Shown here: positions 4,133 to 49,775 of the stretch, one piece after another
Position numbering within the stretch: the first letter of the stretch is position 1
How the letters are laid out: every line of letters starts with the position of its first letter
Assembly (NCBI GenBank): GCA_022414725.1
Contig: CM039462.1
Location: 34,897,004 to 34,961,003, forward strand
Direction: 5' to 3'
Length of the DNA: 64,000 bases
Source of the DNA: Microglena sp. YARC
Lineage: Eukaryota; Chlorophyta; Chlorophyceae; Chlamydomonadales; Chlamydomonadaceae
Position numbers and translations under genes: made by a program
The notes under the pieces: generated by a model
Databases searched by the model: none
What the model was told of the DNA's origin: nothing
The model's input: only the letters and a program-made list of their open reading frames with translations

Positions 4133-4325
4133 CTGTTGGCCAATTTTGCAATGCGATAGTCGACACAATTGACGAACTGCTCTCCCCAGCGGAGCAAGGA
4201 AGCATTGTCTTGAGCCATCCCCTGGGGCATGACTGGCAGCGGCAAGGGGTCGGACCTGCCACGACTGTGCTTGTTTACCGCCTCCTCGACATGAGACCTC
4301 AGCATCTGCCTCAAGCCTCCTCTGC
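4133..4325 (-). CDS. Internal exon, unknown protein
   Basis: On the minus strand the acceptor is CACCCTTCAG directly before 4325 and the donor is GCCAACAG then GTATAC after 4133. The frame gives an acidic start (AEEAEADAEVHVEEAV by array consensus), then NKHSRGRSDPLPLPV and RWGEQFVNCVDYRIAKLANR. Relative to the copies of its own start in the array at 4326-5545, the exon has two extra single bases (near 4290 and 4313). Removing both gives 191 nt and one open frame, so they are probable sequence errors or a decayed exon. I do not recognise the protein. The exon lies outside the duplicated block, so no second copy can be compared. Confidence 0.55.
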
Positions 4326-5545
4326 CTGAAGGGTGAGTTAAGGGGAGTGGGGGTTGGGGGGGTGGGTGGGGTGGCCATCTGCCTCAGCCTCCTCTGGGGT
4401 GCCTGAAGGTGTGGGTTGGGGAGTGGGGGTGGGGGTGGGGTTGGGTTGGCCATCTGCCTCAGCCTCCTCTGCCTGAAGGGTGGGTTGGGGGAGTGGGGGT
4501 GGGGGGGTGGGGTGGGGGGTGGCCATCTGCCTCAGCCTCCTCTGCCTGAAGGGTGGGTTGGGGGAGTGGGTGTGTGGTGAGTTGAGGGGTTGGGGTGGGG
4601 TGGGCCACCTGCCTCAGCCTCCTCTGCCTGAGGGGTGGGATGGTGGGTGGGTGGGGTGGGGGTGGATGGGGGATGGGGGGTGGGGTGGGGTGGGGGGCTT
4701 GTTTACCGCCTCCTCGACATGGACCTCAGCATCTGCCTCAGCCTCCTTTGCCTGAAGGGTGGGGTTGGGGCGTGGGTGGGGTGGGGTGGGTGGGGGTAGG
4801 GGTTGAGGGGTTGGGGTTGAGGGTGGGTTGGGGTTGGGGGGTTGGGGTGGGCCATCTGCCGCAGCCTCCTCTGCCTGAGGGGTGGGGTGGTGGTGGGGTG
4901 GGGTGGGGGTGGATTGGGAAGATGGAGGGTGGGGGAGATGGGGTGGGGGGGCTTGTTTTACCGCCTCCTCTACATGGACCTTCAGCATCTGCCTTCAGCC
5001 TCCTCTGCCTGAAGGGTGGGTTGGGTTGGGGCGTGGGGTGGGGTGGGGTAGGTAGGGGTTGGGGGTTGGGGGTTGAGGGTGGGTTGGGGTTGGGGGTTGG
5101 GGGAAGGGTGGGGCATTGCCGCAGCCTCCTCTGCCTGAGGGGTGGGTTGGGGTTGGGGGGTAGGGTTGGGCTTGGGGGTGGTTGAGGGGTGGGTTGGGGT
5201 GGGATGGGGTTGGGGGTTGAGGTTGCGGGTTGGGTTGGGGGTTGGGTGGGGTAGGGTTGGTAGGGTGGGGTGGAACATCCGCCTCAGTCTCCTCTGACTG
5301 AGGAGTGGGTTTGGGGGTGAGATGGGTTGGGAGGTGGGATTGTGGGGCGGGGGGGGGTTGTGGGGTGGGGGCAGGGGGTGGGTTAGGGGGTTGGGGTGGG
5401 TTGGGGGGGGGGGGTAGGGTGGGGTGAGGCATTCTGCCTTAGCCTCCTCTGCCAGAGGGATGGGTTGGAGGTGGAGTGGGTTGGGGTGGGAGGTGGGGTG
5501 TGGTAGGGTGGGTAGGGTGGGGTGGGGCATCCGCCTCAGCCTCCT
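4326..5545 (-). repeat. G-rich minisatellite made of the splice acceptor and first codons of the 4133-4325 exon
   Basis: About 12 units of 65-160 bp. On the minus strand each has a C-rich tract, CACCCTTCAG, then GCAGAGGAGGCTGAGGCAGA, the exon's first codons. Unit cores are near 4389, 4468, 4546, 4620, 4743, 4867, 5001, 5128, 5290, 5446 and 5542. Units near 4715 and 4955 keep more of the exon (AEVHVEEAV). The spacers are GGGTTGGGG-type, so the plus strand is dense in potential G-quadruplexes. Confidence 0.8.
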
Positions 5546-6480
5546 CTGACTGATGCACAGATGTGGTGGTGTGGTGGTGGTGATCGTGGTTTTGGGGTGG
5601 GGTAGGGGAGGGGGGAGGCGAGATGGTGGTGGAGGGCAAAACACATTGTCAAACACATAGGTTACATTCAAGGGGGTGGGTAAGACATAAGCTATGCACT
5701 CTCTTGCTGGTGGTGGTGGTGGGTGGTGGTGGTGGTGATCGTGGTTTTGGGGGTGAATTGGGGGGGGGGGGGGGGGGGGAGGCCGAGATGGTGGTGGAGG
5801 GTTAAAACACATTGTCAATCATATAGGTTACATTCAAAGAGGGTGAGTAAGACATTAGCTATGCACTCTCTTGCTGGTGGTGGTGGTGGTGGCGGTGGTT
5901 GTGGTCGTGAAGGCAGAGCTGGTGGTGGAGGGCAAAACACATAGTCAAACATATAGGTTACAATCAAAGAGGGTGAGTGAGACATAAGCTATGCACTCTC
6001 GTGCTGGTGGTGGTGCTGGTGGTGGTGAAGGCAGAGATGGTGGTGGAGGGCAAAACACCTTGTCAAACACATAGGTAACAATCAAAGAGGGTAAGTGAGA
6101 AGTAAGCTATGCACTCTCTTGCTGCTGGTGGTGGTGGTGGCGGTGGTGGTGAAGGCAGAGATGGTGGTGGAGGGTGAAAAACATTGTCAAATACGTAGGT
6201 AACAATCAAAGAGGGTGAGTGAGACATAAGCTATGCACTCTCTTGATGCTGGTGGTGGTGCTGCTGCTGAAGGCAGAGATGGTGGTGGAGGGCAAAAAAC
6301 ATTGTCAAATACATAGGTTACATTCAAATAGGGCGAGTGAGACATAAGCTATGCACTCTCTTGCTGCTGGTGGTGGTGGTGCTGCTGAAGGCAGAGATGG
6401 TGGTGCAGGGTGAAGCTTTTCATTGTCCAACACATAGGTTACATTCAAAGATGGTGAGTAGGACATTGTCAAACACATAC
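5546..6480. repeat. Tandem repeat of 115-165 bp, about seven units
   Basis: Each unit has GACATAAGCTATGCACTCTC, a GGT/GGC run, GGCAGAGATGGTGGTGGAGG, GCAAAACACATTGTCAAA and CAATCAAAGAGGGTGAGTGA. Cores lie near 5692, 5857, 5987, 6107, 6230, 6349 and 6504. The triplet run varies most. No exon is convincingly tied to it. Confidence 0.85.
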
Positions 6481-6867
6481 ACACACATCCAAGTAAGACA
6501 TGCACTATGCACTCTCCTGGTGGCGGTGGTGGTGGCGATGGTGGTGGCGATGGTGGTGGTGGAAATGATGGTGGTGGTGGTGGTGGTGGTCAAGGTGTGG
6601 TGGTGGTGGTGGTGTGTGGTGGTGGCGGAGGGCAAAACACATTGGCAACACACACACATCCAAGTAAGACATGCGCTATGCACACTACCTGATGCTCAGA
6701 TCCACCACAGGAACCCCACTCACTACCCTGCCCCACTCGGGTGTGGTGGTGATGGTGGTGGTCAAGGGTGTGGTTTGGTGGTGGTGGTGGTGGTGGTGGA
6801 GGTGGAGGGCAAAAAACATTGTCAACACACACACACATCCAAGTAAAACATGCCATATGCACACTAC
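6481..6867 (-). repeat. Partial tandem copies of the 3' end and donor of the 6868-7068 exon
   Basis: At 6690-6735 the minus strand repeats GTGGTGGATCTGAGCATCAG followed by GTAGTGTGCATA, the exon's last codons and donor. The neighbouring intron start with TTACTTGGATGTGTGTGT occurs three times (about 6480, 6650, 6830). GGT triplet runs separate them. Confidence 0.7.
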
Positions 6868-7068
6868 CTGATGCTCAGATCCACCACACGAGCCCCACTC
6901 ACTGCCCCGCCCCGCTTGGGTGTGAGCAGAACCAGGCGTGAAGGTGCTGTCTGTTGCAAGGCTGAGGGAGGCTTTCAAGCCCCGGGTGACGCGCAGGAGG
7001 AGGGAGGCGGAGGCTTCAAAGAGGGGGTCGTGGGTGCCGACAGAGCCAAGGATCAATAGGCAGGTGTC
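6868..7068 (-). CDS. Internal exon, unknown protein, 67 codons
   Basis: On the minus strand the acceptor is CATCCTCTGCCCCAG ending at 7069 and the donor is GAGCATCAG then GTAGTG after 6868. The exon is exactly 201 nt, in phase 0 at both ends, with one clean frame: DTCLLILGSVGTHDPLFEAS near the start, then LLLRVTRGLKASLSLATD and STFTPGSAHTQAGRG. The first half alternates hydrophobic and small residues like a folded domain; the end is Gly/Ser-rich. I do not recognise the family. Its noisy second copy is near 18960-19140. Both boundaries are echoed by tandem copies: 3' side at 6690-6735, 5' side at 7150-7200. Confidence 0.6.
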
Positions 7069-7420
7069 CTGGGGCAGAGGATGGGTGAGTGGTGGATGGT
7101 CGAGGGGAGTTTGGGGTGGGGGCTTCGAAGAGGGGGGCTTAGAGGATTGTGACGGAGCCAGGGATCAATAAAGCAGGGTGTCAAGCAGAATGGTTGGAGG
7201 GAAGAGGGGGGGGGAGGGGGGGGCAGCACTCGGTGTGGGTGTGTCGGTGTGGGTTTTGAATGGTGCTGTTGGGGGGTAAGGTTGGGGTTGGGTTGGGTTG
7301 GGGGTTGGGGTTGGGGGTTGGGGGGGGGGGGAGGGGGGTACGTTGGGGTTGGGGTTGGGGCTGGGGTGGGGAGGGGGTTGGGAGGGGGTGCGTTGCGGGT
7401 GGGTTGGTACTCTACAGGCT
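7069..7420 (-). repeat. Degenerate copy of the exon acceptor region and G-rich spacer
   Basis: Around 7130-7200 the minus strand resembles the start of the 6868-7068 exon (TTTATTGATCCCTGGCTCCG). The rest is GGGTTGGGGTTGGGG sequence with strong G-quadruplex potential. No further gene is seen. Confidence 0.5.
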
Positions 7421-7588
7421 GAATACTCACCACCATTGTTGGGTGTAAGGTTGGGGGGGGGGGGGGGGTCCTCTACAGGCTGAATACTCACCACCATGTT
7501 GGGTGTAAGGTTGGGGGGGGGGGGGGGGGGGGGGGGAAGACAGGGGTCCTCTACAGGCTGAATACTCACCACCATGTTGGGTGTTAGG

Positions 7589-7619
<31 letters not shown>

Positions 7620-8161
7620 TCCTCTACAGGCTGAATACTCACCACCATGTTGGGTGTAAGGTTGGGGGGGGGGGTCCTCTACAGGCTGAATACTCACCCA
7701 CCATGTTGGGTGTAAGGTTGGGGGGGGGGGGGGGGGGGGGGTCCTCTACAGGCTGAATACTCACCACCATGTTGGGTGTAAGGTTGGGGGGGGGGGGGGG
7801 GGGGTCCTCTACAGCGGAATACTCACCCACCATGTTGGGTGTGTAAGGTTGGGGGGGGGGGGGGGGGGGGGGCGTACTCTACAGGCTGAATACTCACCAC
7901 CATTGTTGGGTGTAAGGTTGGGGGGGGGGGGGGGGGGGGGGGGGGGGTACTCTCAGGCTGAATACTCACCACCATGTTGGGTGTAGGTTGGGTTGGGGTT
8001 GGGGGGGGGTACTCTACAGGCTGAATACTCACCACCATGTTGGGTGTAAGGTTGATGGGGGGGGGGGGGGGGGGGGGGGGTACTCTACAGGCTGAATACT
8101 CACCACCATGTTGGGTGTAAGGTTAGGGGGGGGGGGGGTACTCTACAGGCTGAATACTCAC
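7405..8161 (-). repeat. Array of about 12 splice-donor units from the 8162-8416 exon
   Basis: Each unit, on the minus strand, reads CCAACATGGTG then GTGAGTATTCAGCCTGTAGA, the last exon bases plus intron start of the adjacent exon, followed by a C tract of 7-30 nt. Period is 57-77 bp, set by the C tract. The non-homopolymer part is nearly invariant. Confidence 0.85.
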
Positions 8162-8416
8162 CACCATGTTGGGTTACTGGCCAAGAGTTTCTGTGGGAAG
8201 TCTGCAGCACTCCCATGCATGAGCTTCTGTTAATGCAGGACCACAAATGCGGGGGTCCTGCATGTACTTCGCCGGAGGCGAATGTGATGAGCTCGTGCAA
8301 GTGCTGCTCCTCTTCTGCGCTGATGGGGGGCTTGCAAAGCATCCAGTCTGTGGGACTTGCAATGAGGTGAACAGCCATGGCAACTCCATCCACGCCTCCT
8401 GGTGCTGCTGCTGTTC
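8162..8416 (-). CDS. Internal exon, unknown protein, about 85 codons
   Basis: The acceptor is a strong pyrimidine tract ending CTTTCTTTCTGAGCAG before 8416; the donor is ACATGGTG then GTGAGTATTC. The frame I prefer is open throughout and gives GGVDGVAMAVHLIASPTDWM, CKPPISAEEEQHLHELITFA and SGEVHAGPPHLWS, ending SWPVTQHG. A second frame (EQQQHQEAWMELPWLFTSLQ) is open until a TAA 12 bases before the donor, so the frame is not certain. No family recognised. Five or more copies of the acceptor half lie upstream (8417-9230) and about 12 of the donor half downstream (7405-8161). A noisy second copy is near 20283-20515. Confidence 0.5.
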
Positions 8417-9230
8417 CTGCTCAGAAAGAAAGACAAGTGCTAATTGGTGCCTGTATGGCACAGTCCAGGGGTAGGCCAGATAGGCTAAAGGGACTTGGGA
8501 TGAGGTGAACAGCCATGGCAACTCCATCCACACCTCCTGGTGCTGCTGTTGGTCCTGCTCAGAACGATAGACATGTAAGAATTGGTATAGTGCTCAATCT
8601 AGTAATCAATCATTGATCTGAAGAATCAAACATGCTGCTGTTCCTGCTCGGAACGATAAACATGTGAAAATTGGTATAGTGTTCAATCTAGTAATCAATC
8701 ATTGATCTGATGAATTAAACATGTTGCTGTTCCTGCTCAGAAATATTGACAAGTCAGAATGTGTGTATGTATGTTATTGTCCAGGAGTAGGCCAGATAGG
8801 CTAAAGGGACTTGGCATGAGGTCAGCAGGCATGGCAACTCCATCCACGCCTCCTGGGGCTGACGTTGTTCCTGCTCAGAAAGATATGTGATAATTGGTGT
8901 ATGTATGTTACAGTCAAGGGGTAGGCCAGATAGGCTAAAGGGACTTGGGATGAGGTGAACAGCCATGGCAACTCCGTCCACTCCTCCTGGGGCTGCCGCT
9001 GTTCCTGCTCAGGAAGAAAGACAAGTGAAAATTGGTAATTGTATGTTACAGTCAAGGGGTAGGCCAGATAGGCTAAAGGGACTTGCAACAAGGTGGACAG
9101 GCATGGCAACTCCGTCCAAGCTTCCTGGGACTACTGCTGTTCCTGCTCAGAAAGAAAGAAATGTGATAAATGGTACAATGCTCAATCTAGTAATCAAGGG
9201 TGAGATAATAAGAGTCTTGAAGCTGTTGAA
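8417..9230 (-). repeat. Array of splice-acceptor units from the 8162-8416 exon
   Basis: Full copies lie near 8512-8562, 8828-8880, 8962-9012 and 9103-9152, with partial copies near 8640 and 8725. On the minus strand each has TTTCTTTCTGAGCAGGAACA then GGAGTTGCCATGGCTG and CAAGTCCC. Spacers share GGGGTAGGCCAGATAGGCTA. Unit length is about 130 bp. Confidence 0.8.
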
Positions 9231-9269
9231 TAGTCTATTCAGGGTGCACCAAGATAGACAAATCTCGAT

Positions 9270-9450
9270 GTTTGGACCCCCAACTGCCCTGGGGTCAACC
9301 ACCAACCGATGTTTTGACACCTAGCTGCCCTGGGGTCAACCACCAACCAACAACCAAATTTTGGACCCCTACCTGCCCTGGGCTCAACCACCAACCACCA
9401 ACCAACTTTTGGACCCCTAGCTGCCCTGGGCTCAACCACCAACCAGCTGC
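9270..9450. repeat. Minisatellite, CTGCCCTGGGCTCAACCACC units
   Basis: Four to five units of 33-48 bp, each starting TTTGGACCCC(T/C)A and ending in CCAACCAAC copies. Confidence 0.85.
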
Positions 9451-9504
9451 TGAATAGTTTTGTTGATATAAATAAATCTGTTTAATAATTAATGATCAAA
9501 TAGA

Positions 9505-9527
9505 TGAGATAGATAGATAGAAGATAG

Positions 9528-9565
<38 letters not shown>

Positions 9566-9686
9566 CATAGATAGAGAAGATAGATAGAGAGATAGATAGA
9601 TAGATAGATAGATAGAAATAGATAGATAGATAGATTAGATAGATAGATTTAGATAGATAGATTGATAGATAGATAGATAGATAGAT

Positions 9687-9743
<57 letters not shown>

Positions 9744-9964
9744 AGAAGATAGATAGATAGATATGATAGATTAGTATGATAGATAGATAGATAGATATGT
9801 ATAGATAGATAGATAGATAGATAGGATTGAATAGATTACGATTGATATAGATTGATAGATTGATAGATTGATAGATTGATAGATTGATAGATTGATAGAT
9901 GATAGATTGATCAGATTGATAGATATGATGATAGATGATAGATTGATAGATTGATAGAATAGAT

Positions 9965-10027
<63 letters not shown>

Positions 10028-10029
10028 CG

Positions 10030-10069
<40 letters not shown>

Positions 10070-10079
10070 AGATAGATAG

Positions 10080-10112
<33 letters not shown>

Positions 10113-10115
10113 CAC
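9505..10115. repeat. GATA microsatellite of about 600 bp with GATT variants
   Basis: (GATA)n with a central block of TTGATAGA units (9830-9960). Open frames of Ile-Tyr-Leu-Ser type on the minus strand come only from this repeat. Confidence 0.95.
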
Positions 10116-10349
10116 GAATATCAGATAATTGATAGTATGATAATCACTGAATGATTTAATACCAATGATGCGGGCTTGATTGGACGGGGTTATGTATGTG
10201 TTTCTACTACACTTTAAGTTGAAGCTGTAACAGTTCCCCATGCAATTTGAAGAAAGATGACCTTTTATATTCCAATCTCTCTCCTCCCCCTCAATCAATT
10301 TTGGGGTATTACCGGTAATACCCGGCAACCCCAGCACAAACAATATATT

Positions 10350-10960
10350 GATTGCATAGCAACCAGTGATCCAGTCCATATAGCTATACATATATATTAT
10401 ATAATAATCAAATCCAGTCTTTCTGATCCAGTCCTCAATAATGTATATGTTACAATTACAATACAATAACAATAACTAATGAGGATATTATTTAATGAAA
10501 CTTAAAATTACAATACAAATACAATTACAACACAATACAATACAATGATATGATATTAATGAACTAAAATTACAAATACCAATACCAATACAATACAATA
10601 CAATACAATTACAATACAATACAATACAATACAATACAAATGATATGATACAATATAACTGACTGAAAAGCAACCAGTGATCCAGTCTATGGGCCCTTCT
10701 TTTTTTTTGCTACACAGGAGTGAAAAATGCGGCTGGACGCCACAATCCGCCTACGGCTCAAAACTGTTGGCGCAAAAGATTTAAAAAATAATGATGATAA
10801 TAATTTATAAAAATGATTGCGGGCAATACAACTGACTGCACAGGAACCAGTGATCCAGTCTGCGGCCATTTTTTGATTTTGGTGCACAGGAGTGAAAAAA
10901 AGCGGCTAACGCACAATCAGCTAGGCTCAACTGTTGGCAGAAATGATACCTCCTGGGCTA
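10350..10960. repeat. Dispersed triplicated motif and AATAC microsatellites
   Basis: The motif AACCAGTGATCCAGTC occurs near 10360, 10670 and 10846. Two ~100-bp units (10690-10780, 10855-10950) share CACAGGAGTGAAAAA, GCGGCT and CGCACAATC. Between them lie ATACAATACA-type microsatellites (10440-10660). No supported gene. Confidence 0.7.
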
Positions 10961-10970
10961 CATATATATA

Positions 10971-11148
10971 GGGATCGGCATATCATATGAGTTCGACAAA
11001 GGCCAAGTTATGGTATTAATGATATCATACAAATTGCATCATATGGTATTCTTATATTAAATGGTAACTTATGGCCTAGTCAGACTGCCGGCATCTCTAT
11101 AATATTGTATGATACATGATATCATTATGATGCCATGTTGCCGTTCCC
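10971..11148 (+). mobile_element. MITE with TA duplication, complete copy
   Basis: The element begins GGGATCGGCATATCATATGA and ends TGCCGTTCCC, with TA on both sides (10969-10970 and 11149-11150). It is 178 bp, AT-rich and non-coding. A TA target and short terminal repeats suggest mobilisation by a Tc1/mariner-type or other TA-inserting transposase; the superfamily is not proven. Confidence 0.8.
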
Positions 11149-11487
11149 TACATAATATTCTAACAGCTCTAATGTCAACTCTTGATCAAATTCGGTCAAA
11201 ACCAGTCAAAAACACTGCCACCTAGACACTGCCACCTCACCTGGATTGACCACCTTCCTCTCGCACCTCATCTTGGTCACCAAGGCCCTGCGTCACGTTG
11301 GACAGCCTGTCACCCTGACCCTTCCCACTCTGGAGGGGTTCCCTTTGCTCCGGGGAAGAAGCCAACCCATGGGTCGCTGCACAGGTGGTCTGGCGCGAGA
11401 CTAGCGGGCGGGGTAGCATTTGCTAGGGGGCCTGCAGCAGTGGTTGTTGGCATTTGGCCCAGGCGAAGTCACCTTCAAGGTGCCGAT

Positions 11488-11753
11488 TTATTGCGGGGGC
11501 TTTTGCGTTGATGCTGTTGATGACTGCTTGCTGTTAAGCTGGTTGATGGCTGCTGCTGTCGCATCCTGGGTACGATATGCTGTGCATGTTTGTTGATGGT
11601 CGGATCCATGTGTGACGATAGCACGGTGCTGACGCTGCTGCTTGCTGTTGATTGTCATGCCATGCGCTGCTTGCAGGGACGAAACGGGAGGCATGGACTG
11701 AGATCGACATGGGAGCCCTTGATGTTGTGCTAGAGAGCTGCTGATGTGTGCAC
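11488..11753 (-). CDS. Candidate terminal exon, Gln/Ser-rich tail
   Basis: The minus-strand acceptor is TTTGCCTCTGACCTGGACAG just before 11753. The longest frame gives TGAHISSSLAQHQGLP, then a Gln/Ser/Thr/Ala-rich stretch and a TAA at 11488-11490. Another frame, in phase with the 12345-12455 exon, is open for about 70 codons and is also Gln/Ser-rich. The polypyrimidine acceptor is the best evidence; the frame and function are open. Low-complexity composition means an open frame here is weak proof of coding. Confidence 0.3.
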
Positions 11754-11919
11754 CTGTCCAGGTCAGAGGCAAATGTCGAAAGTGTGGCCGTTGCATTGCG
11801 AGTCCGATGGCAGCAAGTATGGCTGATCTGTAGCAGTCGATGGCTAGGTGAGAGGTTGTCAGGCCCGGCCTACCTTTTCAGGTCATTCAGAACAATCGTC
11901 CCAATCCCTAGCCTGGACC

Positions 11920-12017
11920 ATTGCCTTTCCCACATGGTGATTGCCCGCGAGCTTGGACAGTAGCAGTCAAAGCTGATGACATGTCACTTTGCAAGCCGTT
12001 TTCGAATTTGAAGAATC
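11920..12017 (-). CDS. Candidate small exon behind a C-rich acceptor
   Basis: The minus-strand acceptor has a long C-rich tract ending CACCCCACACAG before 12017, followed by a frame starting FFKFENGLQSDMSSALTATV and closing at a TAG about 100 nt on. The noisy second copy near 24127 keeps a similar FFKFE start. The 3' boundary is not resolved and the product is unknown. Confidence 0.3.
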
Positions 12018-12129
12018 CTGTGTGGGGTGTGTGGTGGGGGGGGGGAGGGGTTTCTGCCTACCCATATATCACAAACCGAACAGGGTGGGGTGGCGGATGG
12101 GGAGGTTGGGGAGGGGGGGGGTGGGGGGG

Positions 12130-12344
12130 GGGGGGGGCTACCCATATACAACCAACCGAAACCAGCCTACCCATTATACACAACCCGTACCAACCTACCC
12201 ACTATACCAACCAACGAACAGCCTACCCATATACCAAGCAACCGAACAGCCTACCCATATACCAACCAACAGAACAGCCTACCCACTATACCAACCAAAC
12301 CGAAAACAGCCTACCCATATACCAACCAACTGAAACAGGCCTAC
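12130..12344 (-). repeat. Array of about eight splice-donor units next to the 12345-12455 exon
   Basis: The minus-strand unit is GTAGGCTGTTCGGTTGGTTG plus GTATATGG, about 28 bp. It starts exactly at the exon's donor (CATCCTAG then GTAGGC), so the array is the first ~28 bp of the intron repeated. A G tract (12106-12138 on the plus strand) closes it. Confidence 0.8.
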
Positions 12345-12455
12345 CTAGGATGGACGAGACATTTCTGTCCTGGAAATCCTGATGCTCCAACCAAACCATG
12401 CTTCATTTGAACTCCAAGCTTGGAACGCTCTTTGGCGCACTTATCCAGGAGTGGC
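12345..12455 (-). CDS. Internal exon, unknown protein, 37 codons
   Basis: The acceptor is CTCTTGCTTATACTTGCAG before 12455 and the donor is CATCCTAG then GTAGGC after 12345. The frame carries one base in and two bases out (111 nt) and reads PLLDKCAKERSKLGVQMKHG then LVGASGFPGQKCLVHPR. Both splice sites are strong, composition is non-repetitive, and the exon survives, with indels, in the noisy second copy near 24447-24573. The protein is not recognised. Confidence 0.6.
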
Positions 12456-13020
12456 CTGCAAGTATAAGCAAGAGGGTGCATGGGTGGGGTGCACAAGTGG
12501 GGTGGGTACGGCATGGGTGGATTGGATTGGCATTGAATTGGTTGATTGGGTTGGGTTGGATTGGAGCCCCAATATTTCAGTAGTACTGGAACCATAATTG
12601 TGTCAGCTTCCAGGTGCACTATGTTGCTTCATGTTTGGCGATGGGAGCAAGCCAGCGGGACGCCACCTAGAAGCTGCCTGCTTGTAGCGAAAATAAAATC
12701 TATGCCTGGCTTCAGATGCTATGGGTTGGCTGCTTGGGGTGTATATGCGCCTTGGCTTCTGGCTGGCTTGGCTTGGCTTTGGCTTGGCTTGAGCTGCAGC
12801 GCTACAGTATCCCCCCCTTACCATTTGGTGGGGTTGGCCGTTTGATTGGATTGGAAACATGGTCTATTTTCAGCCTTTAAGCTGCTCTCCCGTCTGCAGG
12901 TGGCTGTGAAAACATGAAGAGTCTCCCGCACATCAACACGAAGGTGATGTCTGCGGATTCCACTACGTGAATCATCAGAACTGATAGCGCTATAACTCAC
13001 AACCCCTAACTTTGTCTAGT
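12456..13020. other. Intergenic or intronic sequence with pentamer runs
   Basis: Holds GGATTGGATT/GGGTTGGGTT runs (12515-12570) and GGCTTGGCTT runs (12745-12795). No exon with two good splice sites was found. Confidence 0.5.
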
Positions 13021-22145: not shown

Positions 22146-22186
<41 letters not shown>

Positions 22187-27608: not shown

Positions 27609-29353
27609 TGGCGCGTTGTGTAGTGGTAGGCACGTCCCATGGTGGTGGTGGTTAGTAGTGGCCACCTTGCTTGTTCGGTAGTGGTCGGTAGGTGGTGGGA
27701 AGCTGCCATGTAAATTTGCTTTTCATTGTGTTGGCGGCCGTTGGTCATCATCTTGTATGTGATGGTAGGTGGTGGTGGTGGTAGGCACCATCGTTGGTCG
27801 GTCTCGGTAGTAGTCGGTAGGCACGTCCTTTGGTGCAGGTGGAGGAGTGGTGGTCACCTTCTTGGGTGGTGTGGTGATCCCTGGTGGGAGTGGTAGTGTG
27901 CTGGGAGTAGTGTGGATGGTCCCTTGGTGGCAGTGGTGGGCACGTCCCTTCGTGGGCAGTTAGTTGGTGGTGGTGGTGGTGGTTGGTGATGGGTAGGACT
28001 GGTGGTCACCTTGCTTGGTGGTGTGGTGGTGGGAAACCTATCAGGAGAATGTTATTTTCACATATATCACTGTGTGCGGCTGTGATCATCACCTTGTAGG
28101 TGGTGGTAGTAGACTCTGGCATCTTGCCAGTTTGGAGATGGATTATTTACTGTGGGCGGCCGTTGACCATCATTTTGTATGTGACGGTAGGTGGTGGTGG
28201 TGGTAGGTGGACAACCTTTGCTTTGCAAGGGCATCTGCCAGTTTTCGAGTATCGAACAATTCTACTGTGTGCGGCGTTGACCATCATCTTGTATGTTGAT
28301 GGTACGTGGTGGTGGTGTTATTTAGGTGGGCAAACTTTGATTTGCAGGGGCATCTGCCAGTTTGTGTATCCAACAATTCACTGTGTGCGGCCGTTGACCA
28401 TCATCTTGTATGTGATGGTACGTGGTGGTCTGTTGGTGGGCAACTTTGTGGCAGGGGCATCTGCCAGTTTGTGATCCAACAATTCACTGAGTGCGGGCCG
28501 TTTTGACCATTTCATCTTGTATGTGTGGTAAGGTCGTGGAGGTGGGTAGTGGTAGGCACTCGCTTGGTGGTGGTGGTGTAGTATAGTGGTAGGCACGTCT
28601 TTGGTGGCGGTGGAGTTAGGATAAGAAGTGGTGACGGTCACCTTGCTTGGTGGTGGTGGTCGGTCGTGTGGGAACCTGCCAGGAGACTGTTATTTTCACA
28701 TATATTCACTGTGTGCGGCTGTTGATCATCACCTTGTAGGTGGTGGTAAGTAGTGGTGGTGGTAGGTGGGCTAACTTTGCATCTGCCAGTTTGAGATTCA
28801 AATTATTTACTGTGGGCGGCCGTTGACCATCATTTTGTATGTGATGGTAGGTGGTGGTGGTGGTAGGTGATGGTGGTAGTAGTTGAGTGAGGGCATCTGC
28901 CAGTTTGAGTATCAAACTATTCACTGTCACAATGTGGGCGGCCGTTGATCATCATCTTGTATGTGATGGTAGGTGGTGGTGGCGGTAGGTGGGCAAACTT
29001 TGCTGGGCAAGGACATCTGCCAGTTTGAGTATCTAACTATTCACTGTGGGCGGCCGTTGACCATCATCTTGTATGTGATGGTAGGTCGTGGAGGTGGTGG
29101 TGGTGGTGGTAGGCAAGTCCTTCGGTGGCCGTGGTGGTAGGAGTGGTGGTCACCTTGCTTGCTTGTGGTGATCTGGTGGTGGTGGGAACCTGCCAGGATA
29201 ATGTTTTGCAAGGGCAATTGCCAGTTTGAGTTTCGAACTATTCACTGTGGCGGCGTTTTGACCATCATCTTGTATGTGATGGCAGGTGGTGGTGGTGGTA
29301 GGTGGGCTAACTTTGCTTTGAAAGGACATCTGCCAGTTTGAGATTCAAATTAT
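27609..29353 (-). repeat. Array of copies of the tail of the last PHPT-like exon
   Basis: Eight or more units of 100-150 bp. On the minus strand each ends in CATACAAGATGATGGTCAAC and GGCCGCCCACAG plus a stop, the end of the 29354-29596 exon. A CCACCACCTACC run and a Leu-Ala-Asp-Ala-like stretch precede it. Bases 27609 to about 28650 still look error-rich; from about 28800 the units are clean and nearly identical. Confidence 0.75.
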
Positions 29354-29596
29354 TTACTGTGGGCGGCCGTTGACCATCATCTTGTATGTGATGGGTAGGT
29401 GCTTCTTTGCAAGGGCCCCAGCCAGGTTGAGAATCTCCGAAGGCTGAGTGGTGTGGTGCCTGCAGTCTTGAGAGCGAACATAGCCAGAGTGGAGAGATAG
29501 ACAGTTGCCCCCATCCTTACTCCACTCCATCAAGCCGCCCCCCATCAATTGCATTGACTCAACCGGCAGTTTGTACTTAAATGCCACTTGGTTAAT
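29354..29596 (-). CDS. Terminal exon of a Janus/Ocnus (PHPT1-like) protein
   Basis: The acceptor is AGCTGCTCCCCTCCAG before 29596; the stop is TAA at 29354-29356. The 80 codons start INQVAFKYKLPVESMQLMGG and continue GGLMEW, SLHSGYVRSQDC and end ITYKMMVNGRPQ. In the Janus/Ocnus family (14-kDa phosphohistidine phosphatase) the C-terminal half has a GGG turn, a beta strand with a GY motif and a C-terminal strand. Spacing and pattern here agree, which I judge by eye. The junction to the 30213-30484 exon is in phase 0. The end of this exon is multiplied downstream (27609-29353), so the true 3' end of the transcript could use another copy of the same tail. Confidence 0.65.
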   Translation of the reverse strand: MNQVAFKYKLPVESMQLMGGGLMEWSKDGGNCLSLHSGYVRSQDCRHHTTQPSEILNLAGALAKKHLPITYKMMVNGRPQ

Positions 29597-30037: not shown

Positions 30038-30145
30038 ACCGTATGCCCCCCACTCCCACCAGCAGCCTCACCGTTTTGTTGATATCGGCCACAAGGCCAT
30101 CCTCAGAACAGTTGTTATGTCCCTTCACCAGTATCTGTTGCTTGC
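29842..30145 (-). pseudogene. Two tandem copies of the donor half of the 30213-30484 exon
   Basis: Copy 30072-30145 differs from the exon at two bases over 74: one synonymous (Ile), one Val to Ile. It keeps the donor AAAACG then GTGAGG. Copy 29842-29911 is more diverged and has a one-base deletion that breaks the frame, but also keeps GTGAGG. Neither has a proper acceptor; C/G homopolymers replace it. Inclusion of the first copy as an alternative exon cannot be excluded. Confidence 0.6.
29913..30023. repeat. C homopolymer of 111 bases with one T
   Basis: 83 C, T at 29996, then 27 C, followed by a short CA run. A shorter C tract sits at 30146-30160 in the sister unit. Both lie where the exon copies lose similarity. 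Confidence 0.95.
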
Positions 30146-30212
30146 CCCCCCCCCCCCCCCACCCCCCCCCACCACCACAACCGTATGCCCCCACTCCCAC
30201 CAGCAGCCTCAC

Positions 30213-30484
30213 CGTTTTGTTGACATCGGCCACAAGGCCATCCTCAGAACAGTTGTTATGTCCCTTCACCAGAATCTGTTGCTTGCCTCCGCGCCCATGT
30301 ACCTTAACCAGCACAAAACAGAACGGCCCCCCCAGTCATCCAATTCAACTGTCTCCATTCGGTTCCCGACCCAGTCGTCACTGCTGCCATGCGCCGTGAG
30401 GTCACGCCACTTCGTCTCTGCTTGACGTTCCAGTTCCTGCTGTTGTATCAGAAGCTCATTCGCCCGTCGGTTTAGATCATTCAC
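30213..30484 (-). CDS. Internal exon: coiled coil plus first half of a Janus/Ocnus (PHPT1-like) domain
   Basis: The acceptor is CATTGTCTTTTCAG before 30484; the donor is AACAAAACG then GTGAGG. The frame begins VNDLNRRANELLIQQQELER (amphipathic, coiled-coil-like), passes through METVELDDWGG, then reads PFCFVLVKVHGRGG, KQQILVKGHNN and EDGLVADVNKT. The last part fits the first beta strands and helix of the PHPT1 fold. The two parts are in frames differing by one base at a run of seven C (30327-30333). An eighth base gives 273 nt, phase 0 to phase 0, so a homopolymer error or a real frameshift lies there. In my alignment the catalytic histidine of PHPT1 (before Ala-Asp in the family) is Val here, so phosphatase activity is doubtful. 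Confidence 0.6.
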
Positions 30485-36260: not shown

Positions 36261-36439
36261 ATTATATGTATATTAACGATGACGCATAATTATTATAATT
36301 ATGTATTTATATATATAAGACGACACACATATTGAAGATATATGTATAGTTATATTTACGATGACTTAAAGATTTACGTTCATTTATAGTTGTATTTACG
36401 ATGACACACAGCATTTCAGTTTCCTTGTTAGCTTGAGGG

Positions 36440-39329: not shown

Positions 39330-40140
39330 TCATCTGAGTAATGTACAACAGAACCTGTAAGTGGGTTGCATTGGAGGTTGGGCCGCATTGGAGGACACGG
39401 TGATGAAGGTGAAGACAAGAGATGCGGATAGAGGCTTGCAAGTGGGCCGCATTGGACGTTGGTTATATACAACAGGGCTAGCATCCATGCTGAGTTAGAA
39501 CCTGTTCCGAACGCTTTCTAAGTCATCTGAGTTATGTACAACAGAACCTGTGAGTGGGTTGCATTGGAGGTTGGGCCGCATTGGAGGAAATGGTGATAAA
39601 GGTGGAGACAAGAGATACGGACAGAGGCTTGCAAGTGGGCCGCATTGGACGTTGGTTATTTACGATAGGGCTAGCTCCCCTTCTGATTCAGAACCTGATC
39701 TGACCGCCTTCTTAGTCTTGTGAGTTTCGTGAAACAGAACCTGCAAGTGGGTTGAATTGGAGGGCATGGTGATGGAGGTGGAGACAGAGATATGGACAGA
39801 GGCTTGCAAGTGGGCCGCACTGGACGTAGGTTATTTAGGACAGGGATAGCGCCCAAGCTGAGCCAGAACCTGCTCTGAACGCCTTCTTAGTCTTGCGAGT
39901 TACCAGTCTGTAAGACAGAGACCTGCGGGTGGGTTGCATTGGAGGTTGGGTAGCATTGGAGGTTGGGTCGCATTGGAGGTTGGGTCGCATTGGAGGGCAT
40001 GGTGATGGCGGTGGAGACAGATATAGACAGAGGCTTGCAAGTGGGCTGCATCGGACGTTGGTTATTTACGACAGGGCTAGCCCATACGCTGAGTCAGAAC
40101 CTGTTTTTGCCGCCTTCTGAGTTACGTAAAACATAACCTG
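39330..40140. repeat. Diverged extension of the 240-bp array
   Basis: Five units of 150-190 bp with GGCTTGCAAGTGGGCCGCAT, GACGTTGGTTATTTA, ACAGGGCTAGC and GAGTTAGAACCTG. Confidence 0.75.
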
Positions 40141-43189: not shown

Positions 43190-43830
43190 TACTCCATCCT
43201 GCTCCTGTCCCTGCATAACTGTACTGCACACATGTACTCACCTGCATGTTCCATCCTACTCCTGCCCCTGCACAAAGGTACTGCACACATGCCCCTGCAT
43301 AACTGTACTGCACACATGTCCTCATCTGCATGTTCCATCCTACTCCTGCCCCTGCACAAAGGTACTGCACACATGCCCCTGCATAACTGTACTGCACACA
43401 TGTACTCACCTCCATGTTCCATCCTGCTCCTGCCCCTGCATAACTGTACTGCACACATGTACTCACCTCCATGTTCCATCCTGCTCCTGCCCCTGCACCA
43501 AGGTACTGCACACATGCCCCTGCATAAATGTACTGCACACATATACCCACCTGCATGTTCCATTCTGCTCCTGCCCCTGCGGACATGTACTGCATAACTG
43601 TACTGCACACATGTACCCACCTGCATGTTTCATTCTGCTCCTGCCCCTGCGCACATGTACTGCATAACTGTACTGCACACATGTACCCACCTGCATGTTC
43701 CATCCAGCTCCTGCCCCTGCGCACATGTACTGCATAACTGTACTGCACATATGTACCCACCTGCATGTTCCATTCTGCTCCTGCCCCTGCGCACATGTAC
43801 TACATGACTGTACTGCACACATGTACCCAC
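43190..43830 (-). repeat. Array of donor-side copies of the 43831-44124 exon, 70-bp unit
   Basis: Minus-strand unit: GGGGCAGGAGCTGGATGGAA then CATGCAG and donor-like GTGGGTACATGTGTGCAGTA. The five units nearest the exon have period 70 exactly; further ones vary from 45 to 95 bp. Each unit has AG before and GT after a 26-nt core, like a miniature exon. Confidence 0.85.
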
Positions 43831-44124
43831 CTGCATGTTCCATCCAGCTCCTGCCCCTGCGCACAGGTACTGCAAGGCGTCCTCTGTCTTATCTTTTGGC
43901 AAACTCGACTGCTCTGTATCCAACGCGCGGTTCTGTTCTGCATGCCAGCGACGTTGAAAACGCCACCGCCATGCTGCATCTCGAACCTCTTCGTGTGAGG
44001 GGTCTCCCCCATTGCCCGCCTTGGCCTCAGCCTCTTCAAGCTGCTGCTGGTGCAGCTGAAGGGCCTGAGACACTAGGGTACCGGCTGAGGCCAACGAGGG
44101 TAGGGGCTGATCGTCGTCGTCATC
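43831..44124 (-). CDS. Internal exon of the PHPT-like gene: acidic start, coiled coil
   Basis: The acceptor is CCTCAAATACTCAG before 44124 and the donor is AACATGCAG then GTGGGTAC. 98 codons, phase 0 at both ends, open throughout. The sequence begins DDDDDQPLPSLASAGTLVSQ, then a Gln/Glu-rich helix ALQLHQQQLEEAEAKAG, a basic/aromatic stretch AAWRWRFQRRWHAEQNR, and SLPKDKTEDALQYL. Linking it to the 30213-30484 exon needs a 13-kb intron full of satellites; the evidence is matching phase, same strand, similar coiled-coil character and absence of other exons between. The link is an inference. Two decayed copies of its first codons lie upstream near 44180-44225 and 44270-44325. Confidence 0.55.
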
Positions 44125-44345
44125 CTGAGTATTTGAGGGTGTTTAGGGGGTGGGGTGGGGGGTGAAGGTGAACCGACTGAGGCCAACGAGGGTAGGGGCT
44201 GATCGTCGTCGTCATCCTGAGTATTTCAGGGTGTTTGGGTGGGGTGGGGTGGGTAGAGGGGTTCGGGTTGAGGGCTGAGAAAGGTTGGGGCTGATTGTTG
44301 TCGTTGTTTTGAGTACATGAGGGTGTTTGGGGGGCGGGGGGGGGG
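44125..44345 (-). repeat. Two acceptor-side copies of the 43831-44124 exon
   Basis: Near 44223 the minus strand repeats AAATACTCAG then GATGACGACGACGATCAGCC exactly. Near 44320 a diverged copy (ACTCAAAACAACGACAACAA) occurs. A G tract (44330-44354) follows. Confidence 0.8.
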
Positions 44346-44802: not shown

Positions 44803-45325
44803 ACCCAAGCCCCTTAACCACCTTAACCCTACACCTTCACCCAAGCCCCTTAACCACCTTAACCCTACACCTTCACCCAAGCCCCTTAACCACCTTAACC
44901 CTGCACCTTCACCCAAGCCCCTTAACCACCTTAACCCTACACCTTCACCCAAGCCCCTTAACCACCTTCACCCTACACCTTCACCAAAGCCCCTTAACCA
45001 CCTTAACCCTACACCTTCACCCAAGCCCCTTAACCACCTTAACCCTACACCTTCACCCAAGCCCCTTAACCACCTTAACCCTACACCTTCACCCAAGCAC
45101 CTTAACCACCTTAACCCTACACCTTCACCCAAGCCCCTTAACTACCTTAACCCTACACCTTCACCCAAGCCCCTTAACACCTTAACCCTACACCTTCACC
45201 CAAGCCCCTTAACCACCTTAACCCTACACCTTCACCCTAGCCCCTTAACCACCTTAACCCTACACCTTCACCCAAGCCCCTTAACCACCTTAACCCTACA
45301 CCTTCACCCAAGCCCCTTAACCATC
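44803..45325 (-). repeat. 36-bp minisatellite, about 14 units
   Basis: Unit: CCCCTTAACCACCTTAACCC then TACACCTTCACCCAAG. It begins 14 bases inside the intron after the nearest donor (GCTCAGGAG then GTGAGG at 45331), so it is intron-start sequence multiplied. Two units have single changes and one lacks a base. Confidence 0.95.
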
Positions 45326-45905
45326 CTCACCTCCTGAGCATCGGCGAGCATTGTTCTGCCCTCGTCCACAGTTTCTAAACTGAGGAGCCTAACTTGGCGC
45401 TTGGACCATGTGCCCACTGCCATGTTCGACCCTAACCATCCTCACCTCATGAGCATCGGCGAGCATTGTTCTGCCCTCCTCCACAGTTTCTAAACTAAGG
45501 AGCCGAACTTAACGCTTAGACCCTGTGCCCATTGCCATGTTCGACCCTAACCATCCTCACCCCCTGAGCATCGGCAAGCATTGTTCCGCCCTCGTCCACA
45601 GTTTCTAAACTAAGGAGCCGAACTTAACGCTTAGACCCTGTGCCCATTGCCATGTTCGACCCTAACCATCCTCACCCCCTGAGCATCGGCAAGCGTTGTT
45701 CCGCCCTCGTCCACAGTTTCTAAACTAAGGAGCCGAACTTGGCGCTTGGACCATGTGCCCACTGCCATGTTTGACCCTAACCATTCTCACCCCCTGAGCA
45801 TCGGCAAGCATTGTTCCGCCCTCGTCCACAGTTTCTAAACTAGGGAGCCGAACTGAACGCTTAGACCCTGTGCCCATTGCCATGTTCAACCCTAACCATC
45901 CTCAC
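45326..45905 (-). repeat. Array of donor-side copies of the 45906-46040 exon, about 118-bp unit
   Basis: Five further copies of exon plus donor, cores near 45338, 45456, 45564, 45680 and 45795. On the minus strand each keeps CAAGCGCCAAGTT or a CTAAGCG variant, CTTAGTTTAGAAACTGTGGA, CGAGGGC and GCTCAGGAG/GGG then GTGAG. Any of the copies could supply the donor actually used. Confidence 0.85.
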
Positions 45906-46040
45906 CTCCTGAGCATCGGCAAGCATTGTTCCGCCCTCGTCCACAGTTTCTAAACTAAGGAGCCGAACTTGGCGCTTGGACCATGTGCCCATTGCCATGT
46001 TCGCCGTCTTGTCCTCCGGACTCAGCACCTTCAAAGACAT
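45906..46040 (-). CDS. First (or internal) exon of the PHPT-like gene
   Basis: ATG at 46038-46040 on the minus strand opens MSLKVLSPEDKTANMAMGTW, then SKRQVRLLSLETVDEGGTML and ADAQE, ending at the donor GCTCAGGAG then GTGAGG. That is exactly 45 codons, phase 0, matching the acidic start of the next exon. Alternatively an acceptor TCTTTGAAG before 46028 makes it an internal exon in phase with the 48291-48624 exon; its pyrimidine tract is weak. Its first codons (VLSPEDKTA) are repeated upstream at about 46140 and 46260. Confidence 0.5.
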
Positions 46041-46345
46041 TACAGTACAAAATTAGTTCTGGATCTATAAAAAAATAAAAATAATGAAAAAAGCCATTGC
46101 TGTGTTTGACGTCTTGTCTTCCGGACTCAGCACCTTCAAAGACATTACAGTACAAAATTAGTTCTGGGTCCAAAATAAAAAATAAAAAATCCAGAAAATG
46201 TAAAAAAGTCATTGCCATGTCCGCCGTCTTGTCCTCCGGACTCAGCACCTTCAAAGACATAACAGTACAAAATTAATTCTGGGTCCAAAATAAAAAAAGA
46301 GATTCCAGAAAATGTCATTTTTTTATTTTGTTTCAGCCAGGTTTC
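46041..46345 (-). repeat. Two upstream copies of the start of the 45906-46040 exon
   Basis: The minus strand repeats TAATGTCTTTGAAG, GTGCTGAGTCCGGA and GACAAGACG at about 46140 and 46260, each preceded by TTGGACCCAGAACTAATTTT. Period about 110-120 bp. Confidence 0.8.
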
Positions 46346-46699: not shown

Positions 46700-47225
46700 A
46701 ATATTATTCAACAAGTACAATCAGGAGGCCCGTCTGGAGGGTCGTCGACCGGCACGGTAACTGGTATCTAGATGCGATGTCGGCTTGAGCATCGTATACT
46801 TACGATCCGGTTCCCTTAATCCCACTGGGCACGTCCATGGAGGTCATTGTGACAATTCTTGGATGTTTAAATTTTCATTTTTATTTTATTTTCGATTTTT
46901 AATCAGGGGGGGGCAGGAAGACAGATTTTGAACCGCATGTTCAATACAGTGTCCGATTCAGATGGGAGTTGGAGTTGTGGAAGGTTCATACCAAAGGATG
47001 GGGAGAAAAAAGTTGAAACAAGTTTTTACCCCCCCCCCCCCCCCCCCCCCCACTCCACCAAATACGGGGTAAACAATCCTCACACCCACCCACTTTCCGT
47101 GGAAGCAATATGACTAATGACTAACTGCAGTGGCTAGGACAGAAAAACGCCCCCAAAATACATTTTGTTCAACCTTAATTTCTGTTTAATTTGGATCCAA
47201 TCGGAAAAAGCTGATTTTGCTCATG
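46700..47225. other. No supported gene
   Basis: A/T-rich sequence, a C tract at 47030-47050, and the first diverged unit of the following array. Nothing else supportable. Confidence 0.5.
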
Positions 47226-48120
47226 AAACACAATACCTTATGTGGATGCCTTTTTAATAATGGCTGGCTGCAGTGGCTTTGACAGCCGGTATGTTTGCTT
47301 CAAATGAACCCCTCTTGATACTAAATCCAAAATTAAATTCCAGAAAAAGAAAAAAAAGAAAAGTTCCAACCTTCATATCTGTTGAATTTGGGTCCCAGTA
47401 GAAAAAGGCGATTTTGTTCATGAAACACAATACCTTGTGGAAGCCGTTTGGCCTTTGGCTGAGTGCAATGGATTGAACGGCCGGTATGTTTGCTTCAAAC
47501 GAAACCCTCTAGATACTAAATCCAAAATTAAATTCCAGAAAAAGAAAAAAAGAAAAGTTCCAACCTTCATTTCTGTTGAATTTGGGTCCAAGTAGAAAAG
47601 GCGATTCTGTTCATGAAACACAATACCTTGTGGAAGCCGTTTGGCCTTTGGCTGACAGCAATGGATTGAACGGCCGGTATATTTGCTTCAAACGAAACCC
47701 TCTAGATACTAAATCCAAAATTAAATTCCAGAAAAATAAAAAAATAAAAGTTCCAACCTTCATTTCTGTTTAATTTGGGTCCGATATGAAAAAGCCAATT
47801 TTGCTAACGAAACACAATACCTTGTGGAAGCCGTTTGACCTTTGGCTGACTGCAATGGATTGAACAGCCGGTATGTTCGCTTCAAACAAACCCCTCTTGA
47901 TACTAAGTTCAAAATGAAATCAAAAGTCAAATTCCAGAAAAATGAAAAAAATGGTTCCGACATTCATTTCTGTTTAATTTGGGTCGAATCAGAAACAGCT
48001 GATTCACGAAACACAATACCTTGTGGAAGCCGTTTGGCCTTTGGCTGACTGCAATGGATTGAACACCCGGTATGGTCCCTTCAAACAAACTCCTTTTGAA
48101 TCTAAATTCAAAATTTAATT
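47226..48120 (-). repeat. Five donor-side copies of the 48291-48624 exon, about 195-bp unit
   Basis: Minus-strand copies end near 47233, 47431, 47625, 47818 and 48018. Four of five keep a ~75-nt stretch without indels or stops, reading FEANIPAVQSIAVSQRPNGF or close variants then HK and the donor GTATTGTG. Between them lie AAATTCCAGAAAAA-type pyrimidine-rich (minus strand) spacers and TTAATTTGGGTCC. Confidence 0.8.
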
Positions 48121-48290
48121 CCAGAAAATAAGAAAAATGTTATGACCTTAATTTCATGTTTTGGGTCCAATCTGAAAAATGCGATTTTGTTCAAGAAAGA
48201 AAAACGCCTGGAGGGGCGTGGTGTTAAGGGGACCTTCCTGTACGCCGCAGCTGGGGAAAGTCACCATTGGGGGTTCACGAAACACAATAC

Positions 48291-48624
48291 CTTGTTAAAG
48301 CCGTTTGACCTTTGGCTGACTGCAATGGCTTGGACGGCCGGTATGTTTGCTTCAAACGAAACCCTTCTCCTGAAGCTGTAGGGCATGATGGGTATTTGTG
48401 GAGGGGGCGCTAGCTGCTTCGTTGAAGCTGTGGTGGTCGAAGCGGGCGTAGAGTTTGTAGATGAGTGATTGTGCAGTGACTCTCCGCTGTTCGAGTTTCG
48501 TAAGCTGGGTAAGGGAGAAGTACGCTGGCCGCTTTTCGACACCCGCATCCCAGAGTACGATTGCGCCAATGGCGGTGGCTTACGGGACCAAGAGCCAGCT
48601 GTCTCCTGACAATTCGGCCCAAAC
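48291..48624 (-). CDS. Probable exon, Ser/Pro/Thr-rich region, maybe upstream part of the PHPT-like gene
   Basis: The acceptor is CTTCCTACTTTGCAG before 48624; the donor is GGCTTTAACAAG then GTATTG after 48291. 334 nt: one base completes a split codon, then 111 codons to phase 0. It reads RFGPNCQETAGSWSRKPPP, LAQSYSGMRVSKSGQRTS, a Ser/Thr/Pro/Asn-rich middle, then QIPIMPYSFRRRVSFEANIP. It is low-complexity and probably disordered, but without repeats inside. It joins the 45906-46028 exon in phase 0. Whether both belong to one transcript is inference. Confidence 0.5.
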
Positions 48625-49775
48625 CTGCAAAGTAGGAAGATTCCACAGATGAATAAAGTTACATGCTTGCATGAGAGATTGAAGTGTGGAATATAATAAG
48701 CATTGCAAGCTTCGTGTTGACTGTTAGCTCGACCTTGCCAAGAAGGAAGGTTCCACTGTTCATTATTGTTACATGCGTGCATGACCAATTGAAATGTGAA
48801 ATATGAAAAGCGTTGTACGATGTGTATTGACTGTTGGCCTGAACCTGCAAAGTAGGAAGGTTCCACAGTTCAGCATTGTTACATGCTTGCATGAACGTAT
48901 GAAGTATGACAGCCATTAATGAGTTTAATTCACACGACTAATACGCCTTGAACATTTAAACCAGGGATATTTTTTTCCGGAATATATCCTGATCGGAATA
49001 CGAGACCCCGTTTTTGCCAAAATTGCCGGAATAAGAAACCTATTTTTTTCGTTTTACTGAAATTGACTAAAATTGACCCAAATAGACCCAAATCGGAATA
49101 AGAATCCTGTTTTGGGAGGAAAATATGGAGGAATACAATAAAAAGGAACAAGATTTCCTCTTTTTTATTTGAAAAAGTATCCCTGATATAAACCACTCCA
49201 TCAAAAACGTGTTGTGTGATTCATACGGATACATGTCTCACAAACAAAGCTTGAAGGTTTCACATGAATTATTGTCACATGCTTACATGAGCTATTGAAA
49301 TGTGAGTATATGAAAATATGAAACACATTGTATGATGCATACATGCCGCACATGCAACATAGGAAGGTCTACCAGTTCATCATTATTATATGCTTATTAT
49401 TTTGTTATTATAATATATAATTATTTTACATTATTTTATTATGCTTATATTATTATTATTATTATTATATGCGTGCTTGAAATGTGAGTATATGAAAATG
49501 CAAAACACATTGCATGATACATACATGCCGCACATGCAACGTAGCAAGGTTGACCAGTTCATCATTATTATGTGCTAATTATTATTATTATATTATTATA
49601 ATATATCATTATTTTACATTATTTCATTATGCTTATTATTGTATGCGGGATTGAAATGTGATAATATGAAACTATGAAACACATTGTATGATGCATGCTG
49701 ATACACGGCTCATCTGTAGGGATCGGCAATATGATATCATGTCATTGTTGTATGCTTACATGAGCCATTGAGATG
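48625..49775 (-). repeat. Array of acceptor-side copies of the 48291-48624 exon, decaying with distance
   Basis: Minus-strand copies of GGAACCTTCCTACTTTGCAG and CTCATGCAAGCATGTAAC-like sequence lie near 48739 and 48851, and weaker ones near 49250, 49365 and 49550, out to 49775. The far copies carry ATTATT microsatellite expansions (49385-49460, 49565-49640). An unrelated AT-rich insert lies at 48955-49195. Confidence 0.7.
49719..49746 (+). mobile_element. Solo end of the TA-MITE
   Basis: TA (49717-49718) followed by GGGATCGGCAATATGATATC, then repeat sequence resumes. Only about 28 bases of one end remain. Confidence 0.6.

Follow-up and report, generated by a model that had tools for sequence, protein, structure and literature searches.

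The introns of the green alga Microglena sp. YARC are rich in local tandem arrays, many of which take in the ends of the neighbouring exons. The stretch analysed here (the window) comprises 64,000 nucleotides at 34.9 Mb of contig CM039462.1 (C1), in a genome of 568 Mb and 2390 contigs, and carries on its minus strand a gene that we call gene 1 and a putative second gene. In the window and in genes sampled beyond it, exon heads are copied into the upstream intron and exon tails into the downstream intron; the copies are dense, their coverage decays into the exons, and arrays of the same kind occupy the interiors of the introns. We consider it probable that these arrays arose by local tandem duplication that is roughly blind to position and is filtered by selection on the exons. 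Because repeats of a similar sort occupy the remainder of the introns as well, the splice sites need not be the cause of the arrays.

The sample beyond the window was drawn from 25 fetched genome stretches and six loci from a search for the kinesin family (128 matches). Kinesin junctions were placed by aligning motors from solved structures with a purpose-written splice-aware aligner, and the splice sites are therefore those predicted by protein alignment. We kept 103 of 115 kinesin introns and five introns of the window, giving 108 introns and 216 junction sides; introns shorter than 180 bp, two introns of a near-duplicate gene (L042, below) and low-complexity 40-mers were left out. Apart from the five introns of the window, all of the sampled introns come from this one gene family.

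Polarity was scored in the 56 exons of at least 90 nt for which both introns are known (52 kinesin and four window exons), after dropping the 18 of 74 internal exons that are shorter than 90 nt. Exon heads recur in the upstream intron of 29/56 exons and in the downstream intron of 0/56, while exon tails recur downstream in 27/56 and upstream in 0/56. Exon middles recur upstream in 4/56 and downstream in 8/56. A preliminary description of this DNA, made from the window, had proposed that acceptor heads lie upstream and donor tails downstream of almost every exon, and the polarity that it described held in all 56 sampled exons. Overall, 95 of the 216 junction sides (44%) are copied within their own intron at no more than 8 edits in 40; 68 of the 108 introns have a copied junction at one end or both. 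Tandem Repeats Finder (TRF) reported 229 arrays with a period of at least 20 that lie in these introns or touch them. A local copy was found for 2310 of 4384 40-mers from the real introns, compared with 5 of 4562 from locally shuffled introns, and chance is thereby excluded as the source of the copies.

The same description took the arrays to reflect a process and not one repeat family, which also appears to be so in distant genes beyond the window, where the head and tail polarity holds. Among the kinesin-search matches, the same exon pieces, picked out by eye, are repeated beside the exons. Inspection by eye also revealed two copies of an exon head upstream of its exon in a PROCN-domain gene (seven matches), which we take to be PRP8, and one tail copy downstream of an exon in a TCP-1 family gene (of 64 matches, no other pair of this kind stood out). 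Of 148193 intron bases, 18216 are matched by sequence from another fetched locus, in a small comparison set made up of the 25 stretches and the window.

We suggest that local tandem duplication is frequent in this genome, affects segments of ~20 to 300 bp and is roughly blind to gene structure, with replication slippage or template switching as the presumed molecular cause. Duplications within a coding exon would change the protein and be lost. Duplications that lie in an intron, or that span a single junction, would leave the message unchanged if the exon-proximal copy of the splice site were used: a junction-spanning duplicate would leave the exon contiguous with one intact splice site, and the exon-proximal site would have to be chosen among near-identical neighbours. 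Duplications tolerated in this way, presumably as neutral changes, would persist, and some would expand. Blind duplication combined with selection on exons would explain why heads lie upstream and tails downstream, why unit lengths vary, why coverage decays into the exon over about one unit length and why the introns are long (median 1034 bp over the 108 introns, each of 180 bp or longer).

The preliminary description went further, and held that the splice junctions themselves seed the arrays. Stated in this way, the proposal is not supported, as copying is no commoner at junctions than at GT or AG sites inside the same introns. Ninety-four of 210 junctions are copied against 91.4 expected from such interior sites (ratio 1.03, 0.88–1.18), a result that supports blind duplication; the values are 84 of 178 against 78.7 for strict splice sites (ratio 1.07, 0.92–1.25) and 7 of 10 against 6.2 for the window alone. 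Further support for blind duplication comes from the 22 introns whose two junctions are both uncopied, which are still repeat-rich (386 of 972 interior 40-mers lie in local repeats), and from the rise of array content with intron length (16 of 115 40-mers in introns shorter than 500 bp; 1785 of 3119 where the intron measures at least 1200 bp). Donors and acceptors also resemble each other (21 and 23 spanning arrays by TRF), and an array of the same form is found at position 29354 of the window, which is probably a stop codon. Finally, the array units had been expected to start within a few bases of the splice site, and no such preference emerged, since array edges fall 0–6 nt beyond the junction in 5 of 93 junction arrays and in 41 of 754 controls. 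A peak at 0–3 nt in the first estimate was put down to a seam-alignment fault; the better method gave no edge preference. The idea that introns grow from their ends can therefore be at most part of the story; their interiors grow too.

The comparisons with interior sites carry a bias of their own if left unweighted: each junction enters the count a single time, an interior site enters it with every copy, and high-copy arrays are over-represented among the controls. Taken by themselves, the unweighted tests would have pointed to an outright rejection of seeding. A rival explanation, a weaker form of the seeding proposal, links the junctions to a duplication hotspot, where some property of splice-site DNA or of nascent transcripts, such as R-loops, pausing or breaks, would raise tandem duplication about two-fold within ~100 bp and introns would grow in part from their ends. 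We regard it as rather unlikely. Several results weigh against blind duplication, and the first three of them argue for the hotspot. First, when each repeat family is counted once, the junction ratio lies between 1.57 and 2.10 across thresholds of 1 to 10 edits (2.10, 1.46–2.88 at 2 edits; 1.72, 1.45–2.04 at 8). Second, TRF finds 44 arrays that span a junction, where collapsed introns lead one to expect 23.6 (ratio 1.86, 1.48–2.29) and present intron lengths 13.2. Third, collapsed coverage drops away from the junctions, from 0.44 at the junction to 0.40 at 30–60 bp, 0.23 at 100–150 bp, 0.15 at 150–200 bp, 0.20–0.21 at 200–400 bp and 0.09–0.13 beyond, a gradient that may be exaggerated because the collapse step may pass over far low-complexity positions. 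In addition, the near/far ratio is 1.71 (1.35–2.15) at 8 edits in introns of 400–700 bp collapsed length, and 1.6 to 3.8 in those longer than 700 bp; 22 of 93 junction arrays end before they reach the exon, as compared with 84 of 754 controls; and the decay into the exon fits its prediction only roughly, coverage exceeding it close to the junction and falling below it deep in the exon.

Other results count against the hotspot. It is at odds with the equal copying at interior sites, the likeness of donor and acceptor ends, the arrays in introns without junction copies, and the position of the array edges, which do not lie at the junction, although a break there would predict it. At 0 edits the family-weighted ratio is 0.85 (0.28–1.71). 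In the 30 introns with a collapsed length of at most 400 bp, the near/far ratio is 0.87, 0.96 and 1.14 at 2, 4 and 8 edits (with wide intervals), and this lack of an end excess supports blind duplication. The junction excess need not mean seeding, because the shortest introns are without it and longer introns contain more dispersed sequence in their interiors: sequence matching another fetched locus accounts for 57 of 2160 positions up to 50 bp from a junction, and for 1228 of 6990 positions more than 800 bp away. Long introns seem to hold inserted sequence, presumably young, that has had less time to duplicate.

The sequence of the copies bears on a second rival, namely that the arrays are kept by selection and that the extra sites work as backups, or as AG|GT sites that let splicing proceed step-wise or stochastically. 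Thirty-three of the 48 copied donors are indeed AG|GT, but the motif is about equally common among all donors (67 of 108). In donor copies the GT is better kept than its flanks, by +0.064 (0.023–0.100) compared with +0.002 in controls, yet a conserved reference junction with neutral copies would also raise GT identity, and the identity peak at the junction is partly a centring effect, weaker in controls. Acceptor copies are without such an effect, AG differing from its flanks by +0.007 (−0.052 to 0.060; controls −0.013). We therefore judge it improbable that the copies are working sites. No loss of GT or AG relative to the flanks was found in the copies, and this absence of depletion supports blind duplication, as does the fall of coverage into the exon over ~100 nt, roughly as the unit lengths predict.

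A third possibility, that collapsed or unpolished long reads created the repeats, draws on the condition of the assembly. Two stretches of the window, 4663–12599 and 16560–24719, lie around a gap of exactly 1000 N (15555–16554) and align at 81–84%; the larger piece of the alignment has 720 gap openings and only 266 mismatches in 7264 columns. The pair resembles a contig overlap left unmerged and unpolished, rather than a duplication of biological origin. Because the assembly has such unpolished patches, divergence between copies cannot serve as a clock. However, of the 2310 40-mers that recur locally, 1814 have a copy that is not identical but 1 to 8 edits away, and the strict polarity is unlike what misassembly would give. 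Furthermore, two near-identical kinesin genes ~26 kb apart (L041 and L042, at C1:190.744 Mb and C1:190.770 Mb; 25 mismatches and 17 gap columns in 1986) have a four-unit acceptor-head array in common, and the array is therefore older than the gene duplication. An assembly artefact is thus a very improbable source of the arrays.

Within the window, nine exon ends (4133, 6868, 8162, 12345, 29354, 30213, 43831, 45906 and 48291) had been described as flanked by arrays of their own sequence. When a 40-mer centred on each boundary was searched for at up to 9 edits over 2.5 kb on each side, seven of the nine proved to have between 1 and 11 copies: 6868 (1), 8162 (11), 29354 (5), 30213 (1), 43831 (8), 45906 (5) and 48291 (4). 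All copies lie downstream, and none was found on the exon side of any of the nine. Boundaries 4133 and 12345 had no copy within 2.5 kb; the former is followed by an AT microsatellite and the latter by an array that holds intron sequence only, and their best exon-only 24-mer matches have 9 and 8 edits. The copies at 8162 have a short exon share (best exon-only 24-mer match, 6 edits). For the upstream arrays, we tested nine acceptors of our own choice. Copies of the acceptor head were clear at four of them, 46028 (2), 44124 (2, one weak), 38380 (4, three weak) and 8416 (4, one weak), and 48623 has one weak copy at 8 edits; at the other four (30484, 29596, 8347 and 12455) the 40-mer search returned no upstream copy at up to 9 edits within 2.5 kb. 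The window thus bears out the preliminary description in part. The features are listed in Table 1.

Table 1. Exons and exon-end copies in the window (positions are those of the window; numbers under remarks give copy positions, with edits relative to the boundary 40-mer)
Feature	Position	Strand	Remarks
Donor-tail array after exon C (last codons, GT, intron start)	43200..43880	−	8 copies, 0 to 5 edits: 43761, 43691, 43621, 43551, 43467, 43410, 43326, 43242
Acceptor-head copies upstream of exon C	44125..44330	−	44216 (1 edit), 44308 (8 edits)
Donor-tail array after exon B, unit ~115 bp	45320..45905	−	45792, 45676, 45561, 45446, 45334; 2 to 5 edits
Acceptor-head copies upstream of exon B	46029..46270	−	46248, 46133; 1 edit each
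Donor-tail array after putative exon A, unit ~195 bp	47400..48290	−	48021, 47823, 47629, 47436; 5 to 6 edits
Single donor-tail copy after exon D	30050..30212	−	30072, 1 edit
Array after exon E: last codons, probable stop, sequence beyond; not a donor	28130..29353	−	29242, 29041, 28807, 28378, 28148; 0 to 8 edits
Donor-tail array with G/C runs after putative exon end 8162	7406..8161	−	11 copies, 8104 to 7431, 4 to 8 edits; TRF
Single donor-tail copy after putative exon end 6868	6670..6867	−	6689, 2 edits
Acceptor-head array upstream of putative exon 8416	8417..9200	−	9142, 9004, 8870, 8554; 3 to 9 edits
Acceptor copies of exon C2 (38380)	39330..39940	−	39922 (1 edit), three weak (8 to 9 edits)
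Exon B, gene 1	45906..46028	−	Donor fixed by P0001; acceptor read by eye; GTW..R motif common to homologues
Exon C, gene 1	43831..44124	−	Donor 43830 in all three alignments; acceptor 44125 in P0001 and P0002
Exon D, gene 1	30213..30484	−	P0002 and P0004 alignments; apparent frameshift in G run
Exon E, last of gene 1	29354..29596	−	Acceptor in all three alignments; PHPT/Ocnus-like end

Gene 1 has homologues in other green algae (the one that is named is Sanguina aurantia), which back its exons B to E, and its C-terminal end is a PHPT/Ocnus-like domain; homologue P0002 carries PF05005. The junctions were placed by spliced alignment of P0001, P0002 and P0004. P0001 is a gene model in the protein database that matches gene 1 at 100% over the aligned part, and was treated as the organism's own model. 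The three alignments agree on donors (first intron base) 43830, 38221 and 30212, and on acceptor (last intron base) 29597; donor 45905 is given by P0001, acceptor 30485 by P0002 and P0004, and acceptor 44125 by P0001 and P0002. The first base of exon C2 is 38380. The preliminary description had taken 29354 for a donor, but the reading frame (GRPQ followed by TAA) probably ends there, since homologue P0004 ends at about the same place. P0001 diverges from the homologues at two places, beyond exon C and beyond exon E, a caution that gene predictors can be misled. Exon D has an apparent frameshift at ~30330 on the minus strand, placed in a G run by the spliced alignments, which may be either a sequencing error or real. 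An intron of gene 1 also holds a 41-bp array of ~123 copies (31330–36410) that abuts exon D and excludes its acceptor.

Homologue support was not found for exon A (48291), and the homologue search with the second gene (exons at 4133, 6868, 8162 and 12345, within 4–12 kb) was empty at E 0.001; we regard these four exons as putative. Elsewhere in the window, a long array of the TGCATTTGCCTGGG kind at 49735–56000 has several frames open on both strands, of up to 958 codons, which are probably spurious. A 210-aa frame on the minus strand at 805–1437, for which Pfam gave no family at E 0.1, resembles the end of a hAT-type transposase.

The arrays show one way in which introns can grow, that is, by local duplication. 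If our sample is typical (95/216 sides copied), extrapolation would put at thousands the natural tests of the choice between near-identical competing sites that this genome contains. A stronger statement, to which we give limited credence, is that the junctions are true two-fold duplication hotspots, that each intron lengthens at its two ends as its splice sites are copied, and that the spliceosome, throughout the genome, has to pick the exon-proximal copy among near-identical decoys. Were it true, the genome would be a natural saturation experiment on splice-site choice, and AG|GT sites would be constantly available for step-wise splicing and for new introns. The hotspot question becomes directly testable with strains or a close relative.

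Minisatellite-type arrays repeat a unit of ~10 to some hundreds of bp head to tail at one place, and the 229 TRF arrays, of period 20 or more, are of this type. Units in the range of tens to hundreds of bp and a varying number of copies are common to both. Unlike in minisatellites, about half of the sampled intron sequence lies in local repeats here, and exon ends are systematically included. Introners (PMC9860276) resemble our arrays in that repeated sequence is tied to introns genome-wide; however, they form one dispersed family, whereas each intron here repeats its own sequence. One family across many introns was not found in our small comparison set, in which matches between loci account for 18216/148193 intron bases. 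In a snow alga, mean intron lengths are 720–823 bp, depending on the annotation (PMC11228838), as compared with our median of 1034 bp, which covers introns of at least 180 bp only and is not a like-for-like figure.

In the polyubiquitin gene UBC, dual-specific AG|GT splice sites stand in tandem, are used, and mark the limits of coding units (PMC10809524). The likeness lies in the neighbouring tandem AG|GT junctions, to which 33/48 copied donors (and 67/108 donors overall) correspond; in contrast to those of UBC, the copies here are partial and stand as candidate sites only. A literature search, with most subscription journals outside its reach, returned no report, in the text accessible to it, in which arrays occupy a large share of the splice sites of a genome. 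Internal gene duplications (Gao and Lynch 2009, as cited in PMC4974935) are likewise small duplications within genes that can include splice sites, but the copied exon ends described here lie in introns and, as far as tested, outside the message. A close precedent is a single tandem duplication across an intron–exon boundary, which copies the polypyrimidine tract, AG and exon start (PMC4974935), tandem duplication being known as a route to introns (PMC3443670, a review). These same elements are copied across the intron–exon boundary in Microglena. In the published case, however, one event made a new intron. No new intron is in evidence here, where many events lie at ~44% of the sampled junction sides.

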